A stretch of 64,000 bases of DNA from Aurantibacillus circumpalustris (lineage in GTDB: Bacteria > Bacteroidota > Bacteroidia > B-17B0 > Aurantibacillaceae): positions 1,674,001-1,738,000 of the forward strand of contig NZ_CP121197.1 in NCBI RefSeq assembly GCF_029625215.1, written 5' to 3'. The notes beneath the pieces are model-generated. The model saw only the letters and a list, made by a program, of their open reading frames with translations, ran no database searches and was not told the DNA's origin. A program made the position numbers and the translations under genes. Of the stretch, positions 15,553-30,854 are shown in pieces. Within the stretch, counting starts at the first letter, position 1. Every line of letters begins with the position of its first letter.

Positions 15553-15935
15553 GGGAAGAGCAGCTTTGCTGCTCTTAGTTTTAACGCGGAGAGACAGAGG
15601 CTCAGAGGCACGGAGGGGCTTTTCTGTTCCTTTAGTTAAAAATATCAATACAATGGTCGTGCTATTTTGGGAAGAGCCGCTGCGCTGTTCTTGGTTTTAA
15701 CACTTAGTGACAGAGGCCCAGAGGCATGGAGAGTTTTTTCTACTTATTTAGTTAGAAATATGAATGTATTCTTCGTGTTTTTTGGGAAGACGCACTTCGC
15801 TGCACTTGGTTTTAACATAGTTTTGACGGAGTAAAAAAGTTCCATAAATTTTTCTAAATTTCCTCTGTACCCCAGTGCCTCGGTATCTCCGTGTTGAACA
15901 GTGTATGCTTTACCTTAGAACCTCTTTATCTCAGT
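15553..15935. repeat. tandem 115-116 bp repeat with inverted copy
   Basis: The 536-base gap between the thioredoxin gene and hemL has no gene. Copies begin at 15553, 15669 and 15784 (GGGAAGAG or GGGAAGAC). Each copy opens with a hairpin, perfect in the first (AGAGCAGC-TTT-GCTGCTCT, 15557-15575) and decayed in the others, followed by GTTTTAAC and, in the first two copies, a purine-rich tract of ~9-base period (GACAGAGGC, TCAGAGGCA). From about 15865 the same kind of tract appears on the opposite strand (CCTCTGTACC, CAGTGCCTC, GGTATCTCCGTG), so the whole block can fold back. It resembles REP-like or MITE-like elements; no transposase is present. Confidence 0.75.
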
Positions 15936-22195: not shown

Positions 22196-23299
22196 ATGGA
22201 AAAAATGTTGAACATAGTTTTATTTGGCCCTCCAGGAGCAGGAAAGGGTACACAGTCAGAAAACCTGATCAGTAAGTATGGATTGGTGCACCTTAGTACC
22301 GGAGATATTTTGCGTTCAGAGATCGCACGTGGTACAAGCCTTGGTACCAAAGCCAAAGAAATAATGGATAGAGGTGAGTTAGTAAGTGATGAAATTGTAA
22401 TTGGTATGATTGAATCAAAACTAGATGAAAACACACACGCCAAAGGATTTATATTTGATGGATTCCCGAGAACAGCAGCACAAGCGGTAGCTTTGGATGA
22501 TCTCTTGCAGAAAAAAGGAACGGGTATTAGCGGTATGTTAGCTTTAGAAGTAGATGATGAAGAATTGACAAAACGATTATTACTTCGCGGAAGAGATAGT
22601 GGTAGACCAGATGATCGTGATGAAACCGTTATTCGTCGCCGTATTCAAGAGTACAATAATAAAACATTGCCTTTAAAAAATTATTACCACGAGCAAGGTA
22701 AGTTTCATTCAATAGATGGCATTGGCACCATCGATGAAATTTTTAAATCGTTAGTAGAGCGCATTGTTTTTTTAAATGCTGAGATGGATTTAACAGCATT
22801 AGAAACCGATTTAGAGCATTTGGATTTGACGATTCAAGATTTTGAAGTTGCAGATGATATTGCTCCTGAGTTACTTTTGGAGATTGACGCCATCAAACGT
22901 GCAGAGGCTGAAGAAGAAGAAGAGAAAAGAGCGAAGGTGAAAATAAGTAAGCAGTCAACAGTTAGCAGTAAGCAATCGGCAGCAGGTAGCAGTAAGGCAC
23001 CTGTAAAAAAATCATCTCCTAAAAAAGCGTCAGCTAAGAAAAAAGTTGCAGTGAAAAAAGCTGTTGCTAAGAAACCGGTAAAAAAAGCGGGTCCTAAAAA
23101 AGCAGCGAAGAAAGTTGCTAAAGCTTCTAAGAAAGTTACCAAGAAACCAATCAAAAAAGCATCAAAAAAGAAAGTGACTCCTAAAAAAACAAGCCCGAAA
23201 AAAGTAGTTGCAAAAAAGAAAGTCGCAAAAAAAATAGTGAAGAAAGTAGTTAAGAAACTTGAAAAAAAAGCAACTGCAAAGAATAAAAAGCGCAAATAA
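22196..23299 (+). CDS. adk: adenylate kinase with histone-H1-like basic tail
   Basis: Residues 1-192 are a complete adenylate kinase (ATP + AMP to 2 ADP): P-loop GPPGAGKGTQ at 11-20, LSTGDILR, AMP-binding FIFDGFPRT at 86-93, and the LID segment RGRDSGRPDDRDETVIRRRI. It has no Cys4 zinc site and the lid is the short form. A normal Adk would stop about there, but the frame continues for 175 residues: an acidic linker (193-247), a Ser/Gln-rich piece coded by a 7-base repeat (251-268), and a ~100-residue Lys/Ala/Pro/Val tail with KKAVAKKPVKKAGPKKAAKK-like runs, close to eukaryotic H1 and bacterial Hc1-type tails. The tail should bind nucleic acid or polyphosphate; its job in an Adk is unknown. 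Codon use looks continuous and the terminator follows the tail, so it is not a read-through error. Confidence 0.93.
   Translation: MEKMLNIVLFGPPGAGKGTQSENLISKYGLVHLSTGDILRSEIARGTSLGTKAKEIMDRGELVSDEIVIGMIESKLDENTHAKGFIFDGFPRTAAQAVALDDLLQKKGTGISGMLALEVDDEELTKRLLLRGRDSGRPDDRDETVIRRRIQEYNNKTLPLKNYYHEQGKFHSIDGIGTIDEIFKSLVERIVFLNAEMDLTALETDLEHLDLTIQDFEVADDIAPELLLEIDAIKRAEAEEEEEKRAKVKISKQSTVSSKQSAAGSSKAPVKKSSPKKASAKKKVAVKKAVAKKPVKKAGPKKAAKKVAKASKKVTKKPIKKASKKKVTPKKTSPKKVVAKKKVAKKIVKKVVKKLEKKATAKNKKRK
22946..22998 (+). repeat. heptanucleotide repeat inside adk
   Basis: Successive 7-mers AGTAAGC, AGTCAAC, AGTTAGC, AGTAAGC, AATCGGC, AGCAGGT, AGCAGTA. Since 7 is not a multiple of 3 the repeat is read in all frames, giving the Ser/Gln/Ala-rich residues 251-268 between the acidic linker and the basic tail. 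The period matches that of intergenic repeats near 30.7 kb and 46.6 kb. Confidence 0.8.
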
Positions 23300-27196: not shown

Positions 27197-27280
27197 ACAT
27201 TGAAGTTACAGGATTTAAGGGTAAGAAGGAGTGCTCGTGGATAAGAGTTATTGATAATGCGGTGTTAATCCTACTAGCTA

Positions 27281-27490
27281 TTAAACCATATAAGGAACAT
27301 AAGGACAAATAAGGGGAGCAGTTGGAAGTTTAAACCATATAAGAAACATAAGAGCACATAAGAGAAACGTAGTGGGCGGTATTCAGTTGGCAGTTTAACC
27401 ACTAAGGCACTTAGGACACGTAGGGACACTGAGAGAACGTCGTGCGCGGGTGGCAGAAAGCAGTCTGCAGTGCCGACTATCGACTTAAGA
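27281..27490. repeat. three-unit composite intergenic repeat
   Basis: The gap 27197-27508 has no gene. Three units start with TTAAACC or TTTAACC at about 27281, 27329 and 27394. Each has a ~9-10-base-period tract (CATAAGGAC, CATAAGAGC, CACTTAGGA) followed by a GCAGTTGG / CAGTTGGCAG / GGCAGAAAGCAGT tract that resembles the 7-base repeats elsewhere. No open frame with coding character and no T-run hairpin is seen. Confidence 0.7.
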
Positions 27491-30306: not shown

Positions 30307-30645
30307 ATGGAGAGCCTTAGACAGCAAAAAGTAAATAAATTATTAGCGAAAGAATTAGCTGAAATTTTTAGAAGTGAATCACGTTCACTTTTTGGCGGTG
30401 GTTTTATAACTGTAACCACCGTTCGTGTTAGTCCGGATCTTAGTTCGGCAAAAGTGTATTTGAGTATTATGGCTAATAAAGATAAAACGCTTGTCTTTAA
30501 ATTAATTGAAAGCCAGACAAATGTTATTCGTAAAAAATTAGGGTTAATTGTCGGAAAACAATTAAGAATAGTACCAGAATTAATGTTTTACATTGATGAT
30601 TCTCTGGATTATGCGATGAAGATTGAAGAGCTGCTTAATAAATAA
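30307..30645 (+). CDS. rbfA: ribosome-binding factor A
   Basis: RbfA is a small KH-fold protein that binds the 30S subunit and helps mature the 5' end of 16S rRNA. The 112 residues begin MESLRQQKVNKLLAKELAEI, then VTTVRVSPDLSSAKVYLSI and the LGLIVGKQLRIVPELMFYIDDSLDYAMKIEELL block typical of the family (split here across residues 78-111). Its start is fixed by the family alignment, which supports the near-leaderless promoter. The LolC/E-like permease gene follows after a repeat-filled 209-base gap, an order common in Bacteroidota. Confidence 0.95.
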   Translation: MESLRQQKVNKLLAKELAEIFRSESRSLFGGGFITVTTVRVSPDLSSAKVYLSIMANKDKTLVFKLIESQTNVIRKKLGLIVGKQLRIVPELMFYIDDSLDYAMKIEELLNK

Positions 30646-30846
30646 TGTAAAATGTGAGAGGCAAAAACCAGTAATGTAAAATGTAAGTGGTAAAAATGAG
30701 TAATGTAAAATGTAATAGGTAAAATGGAAAATGTAGTATTGTTAAAGAAAGTTTCACGAACAAGTTCTCTTTTCCATTTTCCATTTTCCATTTTCCATCT
30801 TCCGTCATTTCTGCACCTTTTTCCATCTTCCATCTTCCCTTTTCCA
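30646..30846. repeat. 7-nt-period repeats in both orientations
   Basis: After the rbfA stop come AATGTAA-type heptamers (AATGTAA, AATGTGA, then two more TAATGTAAAATGTAA blocks about 42 bases apart) up to about 30735, and from 30770 to 30846 the inverse type, CCATTTT repeated (TTTTCCATTTTCCATTTTCC, then TTCCATCTTCCATCTTCC). The two halves are partly complementary around a ~40-base centre, so a long imperfect hairpin is possible. Open frames here, such as one rich in Trp, Lys and Met on the minus strand, are products of the repeat. Confidence 0.75.
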
Positions 30847-30854
30847 TTTTAGCC

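Follow-up and report, generated by a model that had tools for sequence, protein, structure and literature searches.

The window analyzed here is a 64,000-base stretch of the genome of Aurantibacillus circumpalustris (G000), which consists of a single contig of 4,604,442 bp. It carries an adk gene whose product, an adenylate kinase, continues well beyond the kinase core (Table 1). Residues 9 to 168 match the Pfam ADK model (PF00406; E = 4.5e-51), and an AlphaFold2 model computed from 26 sequences (mean pLDDT, 68.5) predicts that the core is followed by a long helix, which includes the acidic run EAEEEEE (residues 237 to 243). From residue 254 on, pLDDT falls below 50.

Table 1. Features at the adk locus and weak intergenic repeat stretches (positions within the window)
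Feature	Position	Strand	Remarks
adk ORF	22196..23299	+	367 aa; adenylate kinase with C-terminal extension (Pfam and ORF)
Predicted long helix after kinase core, residues 179-252	22730..22951	+	AlphaFold2 model
AGTNNGC units, five in register, codons 251-262	22946..22980	+	At predicted helix/disorder boundary
Decayed continuation of adk array	22981..22998	+	Units 6 and 7
Lysine-rich Adk tail, predicted disordered	23009..23296	+	Common to 23/23 same-genus relatives with complete gene
Weak intergenic AGTNNGC stretch	27371..27391	+	2 mismatches
Weak intergenic AGTNNGC stretch	27448..27475	+	Two overlapping matches, 3 mismatches each

An earlier note on this DNA described seven AGTNAGC heptamers at 22946-22998, read as codons 251 to 268. 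Checked against the ORF, the coordinates and codons are correct: codon 251 starts at 22946, and codon 268 contains 22998. The repeat itself is real, but it consists of five units (AGTAAGC AGTCAAC AGTTAGC AGTAAGC AATCGGC) followed by decay, and AGTNAGC is too narrow a description of a unit that reads AGTNNGC across the genome. Units 1 to 7 match 5, 4, 5, 5, 4, 3, and 2 of the five fixed bases of AGTNNGC; unit 6 is thus decayed and unit 7 is at background level, while an AGTAAGG at 22991-22997 is out of phase with the array. Tandem Repeats Finder reports AGTAAGC in 4.1 copies at 22946-22974 (score, 37).

The adk array has an AGTNNGC score of 8. When synonymous codons were drawn from the usage in 34 window ORFs, this score was reached in 4 of 20,000 redraws of the same peptide, and in 0 of 20,000 when residue order was shuffled as well. 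The sense score is at most 3 in every other ORF of this set (34 ORFs of at least 200 aa), and among 60 motif arrangements tried on adk, the best besides AGTNNGC scores 4. These codon-resampling nulls rule out chance or composition alone as the source of the array.

The adk gene is complete in 23 of 24 same-genus relatives; that of G022 runs off its contig. All 23 encode the acidic helix region and the lysine-rich tail, as do two further adk loci, L046 and L050. In this set of 25 genes, the AGTNNGC score stays below 4. The earlier suggestion that the array created the linker that fused the tail to Adk is therefore rejected, the tail being present without the array in all 23 complete same-genus genes. 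Adk has no such tail in the more distant L036, L037, L039, and L040, where it ends at 189 to 197 residues (L031 and L051 are cut genes). Three other distant loci, L038, L052, and L054, encode Adk with a lysine-rich tail, so that the tail is patchy across the class.

In the sister genome G010, the core of the array is aligned to AGTTAGT AGTAAAA AGTCTGC, which is in register but decayed (score, 3), and the G000 and G010 genes align across the array with few gaps and no large length change. The idea of a recent, clean insertion in adk finds no support in this alignment. Because the G010 units are decayed yet in register, the array may predate the split between the two genomes and may have replaced, not lengthened, the linker; as far as the aligned sequences go, replacement or in-place change in adk is possible. 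Capture would probably postdate the divergence from the G019 lineage and possibly predate the separation of G000 and G010. The same residues encoded by unrelated codons in relatives, which the earlier note had named as a sign that the repeat is accidental, were not found, the decayed G010 units being in register.

AGTNNGC arrays between and within genes

We scanned genomes for three tandem AGTNNGC units with up to two mismatches, using the reversed pattern as a control. The genome-wide search, a check of the kind proposed in the earlier note, gave 75 matches versus 0 controls in G000, 102 versus 1 in G017, and 56 versus 1 in G010; several same-genus genomes have almost no matches. The highest count among 41 genomes, 858 matches versus 10 controls, came from G025, a 7.2-Mb genome of the same class but another family.

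G000 has 22 arrays with a score of at least 6, of which 18 (unmerged) are noncoding and 4 lie in frame in conserved ORFs. The noncoding arrays were taken from regions around triplet matches outside the four coding loci; 7 of 18 regions examined in G000 have no array of this score. Among the matches listed for G017 and G010, 20 of 22 merged arrays were taken as noncoding (arrays less than 100 nt apart were merged, and contig C368 of G010 was left out along with places already covered). Unmerged, the noncoding arrays of the three genomes number 45 among the matches listed.

Between the genes of the window, where the earlier note saw the same period, AGTNNGC is present but weak (Table 1), and period-7 tracts that are stronger (30673-30735 and 30770-30850) are built from different units. 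They fall within two neighboring intergenic tracts at 30643-30850, one with periods 29 and 7 (TAATGTAAAATGTAAGAGG-like) and the other with period 7 (TTTTCCA). At 27260-27480, also intergenic, ACATAAGG-like, CACTAAGGCAC-like, and AGTNNGC repeats lie side by side as a patchwork. Tandem Repeats Finder also identified a 116-bp tandem repeat of 2.3 copies at 15553-15817.

An intergenic-type repeat read as protein, as the earlier note proposed for adk, was confirmed there and in three further conserved G000 genes. All four arrays run in the AGTNNGC direction: in adk, in the linker of an E2 protein, in the linker of an ABC-F-type ATPase, and in a loop of a C-N hydrolase; the codon nulls, out of 20,000 redraws, are 4, 0, 0, and 1, respectively. 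The E2 array has 13 units (residues 216 to 246) and is flanked by the second lipoyl domain and the E3-binding domain, Pfam having identified lipoyl, E3-binding, and acyltransferase domains. Two E2 proteins are distinguished below, a first that we take to be of the pyruvate dehydrogenase type and a second that we take to be of the oxoglutarate type. The ABC-domain ATPase is presumably an ABC-F protein; its ABC domains match Pfam, the C-terminal domain model scores below the cutoff, and the array follows the second ABC domain and precedes the C-terminal region. The search for this protein covered 25 genomes (41 for the other proteins), and 14 loci were scored (G000 and 13 relatives, with G017, G018, and G020 not among them).

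In the hydrolase, the array falls on a 13-residue gap relative to the solved homologue 2e11, and none of the 23 relatives scored reaches 4; it is the clearest insertion among the G000 coding arrays. Of the 30 hydrolase loci, 29 were aligned (L154, which has no ORF with the hydrolase motif, was left out), and 23 of the 28 aligned relatives were scored for arrays, the other five being used as protein alignment only. Loops about as long, with other sequence, occur in 2 of these 28 relatives (L155 and L174). The DNA for the long loop of L155 (G001), SQQSVTISRVEGQSSIAN, opens with two AGTNNGC-like units, and this loop is possibly an older, decayed capture.

Five more coding arrays were found in G017 (first and second E2) and G010 (both E2s and the ABC-F-type protein). 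The second E2 has an array in both genomes, and the most similar gene in G000 scores only 2. In G017 the array of the second E2 coincides with the end of the contig (C10; locus L330, its last 1,515 bases), so that the reading frame is covered only up to the array; such a break would be expected if repeats disrupt assembly. E2 arrays with a score of at least 6 also occur in G006, G018, G020, and G007; they occupy the first linker in G010 and G007 and the second linker in the other five genomes. The nine coding arrays outside G000 have codon nulls of 0 to 75 out of 20,000. All 13 coding arrays are made of tandem 7-bp units, span 28 to 98 nt, encode variable peptides, and occupy interdomain stretches, the border of a predicted disordered tail, or a loop of variable length. 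These observations support the capture of a repeat into coding sequence, and the genome's own repeats appear to be raw material for protein linkers.

Out of 24 genomes, arrays scoring at least 6 in E2 are found in the 7 that have the most AGTNNGC matches (13 to 102) and in 0 of the 17 that have 9 or fewer. Matches within E2 contribute to these counts, for example 3 of the 13 in G018 and 2 of the 19 in G006. One genome with 5 matches, G016, has a weak E2 stretch (score, 4). On a tree of Adk and E2 from 24 genomes, in which 10 of 21 inner branches are open, the E2 array changes state at least five times (the E2 gene of G009, in two pieces, was left out of scoring and tree). The array tracks match number in 24 of 24 genomes at a cut between 9 and 13, chosen after seeing the data. 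At a cut of 9, the well-supported branches of the tree provide only three independent pairs, with a median p of 0.25, and the association, which is not significant once relatedness is taken into account, is weak.

Orientation and reading phase

Among the matches listed for G000, G017, and G010, the coding arrays are all sense (9/9), two frames at locus L333 of G017 being set aside. These frames, of 204 and 209 codons and partly masked as N, are open in antisense over arrays. Their overlap and repetitive sequence led us not to regard them as genes; should either be real, the 9/9 would fall. L333 was treated as noncoding in the open-frame count and left out of the unit counts. Stop codons alone were rejected as the cause of the sense orientation, as noncoding arrays are more often open in antisense (90 of 135 antisense frames versus 65 of 135 sense frames, among the matches listed). 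The sense peptide is rich in Ser, Gly, Val, Gln, and Ala and the antisense peptide in Leu, Pro, Thr, Ala, and Cys. Since the orientation is not due to stops alone and the two peptides differ, a filter at the peptide level would be the simplest reading.

The reading phase points to selection as well. In phase 1, where TNN forms a codon, the usual noncoding centers TG, GG, AG, and AA give Leu, Trp, or stop. A C at position 4, which yields serine in phase 1 and so avoids stop, Trp, and Leu codons, occurs in 24 of 33 phase-1 units of the 13 coding arrays, versus 8 of 34 phase-0 units, 2 of 21 phase-2 units, and 7 of 179 noncoding units. The count took in coding units that matched four or five fixed bases and noncoding units that lay within a triplet with at most one mismatch. 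The Fisher value of 2.6e-18 overstates the strength of this contrast, as arrays of related species are not independent; neither 24/33 nor 9/9 is a set of independent counts, because the coding arrays of related species may be inherited. The contrast between phases is made within the same arrays and needs no noncoding reference. We infer that coding arrays have been shaped as protein, by selection on the properties of the linker peptide.

Proposed origin, alternatives, and known systems

We postulate, and consider likely, that AGTNNGC arrays are copied into genes, kept in frame where a linker tolerates them, and left to drift under selection, the adk array being one member of this set. Copying between sites, which we infer, would move array DNA from place to place by template switching, by slippage plus ectopic conversion, or by a mobile carrier. 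Most insertions into coding sequence would be lost; one would be kept if it fell in a tolerant linker, left the frame intact, and ran in the AGTNNGC direction (Ser, Gly, Val, Gln, and Ala), after which it would drift under selection for an open, hydrophilic linker.

An alternative hypothesis is that heptamer-prone replication error expands local sequence in place in each gene, with nothing copied from elsewhere. Most genomes with many long simple repeats of this kind are described as having heptamers as the most abundant class (PMC4679880), several period-7 families exist in this genus, and the G010 adk alignment, with no large length change, would suit a local process. Independent slippage, however, would not yield one consensus at unrelated genes and at intergenic sites, and single-unit changes of 7 nt would shift the frame; we regard it as unlikely. 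The arrays might instead be sites for a DNA- or RNA-binding protein or for DNA uptake, with the peptide as a by-product. In noncoding units AGT and GC look more constant than NN, although it was by those positions that units were chosen and the neighbor units, 33 in number, are few; uptake sequences too prefer one orientation in reading frames (PMC2346458). Yet arrays seem depleted in genes (9 of 47 coding in three genomes, among the matches listed, while 34 long ORFs take up 44,703 of the 64,000 window bases), and many genomes of the genus have almost no arrays, which makes a binding or uptake role quite improbable.

Coincidence, in which a linker rich in Ser, Lys, Gln, and Ala and written in preferred codons merely looks periodic, draws on the ordinary linker composition of SKQSTVSSKQS and on the shortness of the adk array taken alone. 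It is largely refuted by the codon nulls and is opposed by the single consensus common to four genes of G000 and by the low scores of the other window ORFs, so that we give it very little credence.

The nearest precedent for in-frame repeat insertion is that of the Rickettsia palindromic elements (RPEs) and, for heptamers with coding copies, that of the TAACTGA repeats. RPEs are described as small repeats of about 150 bp with a conserved peptide, in frame within unrelated conserved genes, for which compatibility with the host protein is predicted (PMC10969869). AGTNNGC arrays are likewise in frame in four unrelated conserved genes of G000 but are built from a degenerate 7-bp tandem unit of variable length, the peptide being set by unit and phase. 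By eye, AGTNNGC does not form a palindrome; a palindrome-like core is present in the adk element of G017 discussed below.

TAACTGA direct repeats are known from Beggiatoaceae, cyanobacteria, and five Bacteroidetes; they are mostly intergenic, and in the genome on which that study centered, most of them immediately precede start codons. The copies in ORFs are read through in the stop-free orientation, mostly near protein ends and outside assigned domains (PMC4679880). AGTNNGC arrays are also heptamers, mostly noncoding and in some cases coding, but they have a variable center, and their coding copies lie in linkers and loops of conserved enzymes. With degenerate tandem heptamers in general they share the period of 7, many dispersed arrays, and variable positions in the unit. 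STRRs are a cyanobacterial class of repeats. In the Nostoc trnL intron, degenerate heptamers (TDNGATT and NNTGAGT) show one unit class replacing another at one site (PMC4476775); the period and degenerate positions resemble those of AGTNNGC, but the Nostoc units lie in a noncoding intron stem and not in protein. DNA uptake sequences, which are repeated words, also prefer one orientation in reading frames (PMC2346458). They number hundreds to thousands per genome, whereas AGTNNGC forms tens of tandem arrays (75 triplet matches in 4.6 Mb).

Unit and degeneracy set the arrays apart from these known relatives, as do their position within linkers of conserved enzymes and their phase-specific codons. 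No description of AGTNNGC arrays was found in a literature search that included four repeat strings and covered few subscription papers. The origins of disordered linkers are rarely traceable because their sequence erodes. Here, for several genes and in several species, the raw material is still recognizable within the genome itself, which makes rates, orientation filters, and selection after capture measurable. A caution also follows: similarity between the linkers of one genome's proteins can reflect shared repeats and not common descent.

Other repeat families at the same linkers

Several period-7 families coexist in this genus. In G017, whose Adk is 78% identical to that of G000, 38 of 40 bases of the adk linker equal an intergenic palindrome-plus-heptamer element of the same genome, and the palindrome core occurs at four places there, adk included, versus 0 controls. 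In the E2 linker of G002, TCGAGCGGAGTCGAGAAG stands three times in tandem. Its pattern has nine matches in that genome versus 0 controls, four of them in the E2 gene and the other five on other contigs with two mismatches each. AACAAGA arrays occur in E2 of G018 and G006 and elsewhere in both genomes (13 matches versus 1 control and 26 versus 3, respectively).

The adk gene of G041 (the genome of L050) contains four AGTTNAA-type units (codon null, 5 of 20,000). The AAAGTNT triplet pattern has 36 matches in G041, three of them in adk, versus 4 controls. In-frame stretches of this type also lie in the linker of a putative ABC-F-type protein, perhaps a different paralogue, and in five genes, where they surround a YPNP motif; their codon nulls are 0 to 30 of 20,000 (at L136 the stretch tested is that after, not before, the motif). 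The YPNP motif seems to resemble the beginning of a type IX sorting domain.

We speculate, tentatively, that across Bacteroidota the flexible linkers of core enzymes may be rewritten repeatedly from whichever short repeat family is spreading in a given genome. If so, dispersed repeats would be a permanent reservoir from which new linkers arise, with reading orientation acting as the filter. Elements of the CTTCGACAARCTCAG and TCGAGCGGAGTCGAG types seem to be common among Bacteroidetes; the former were searched in G017 only, and the latter gave matches in four of the eight genomes searched.
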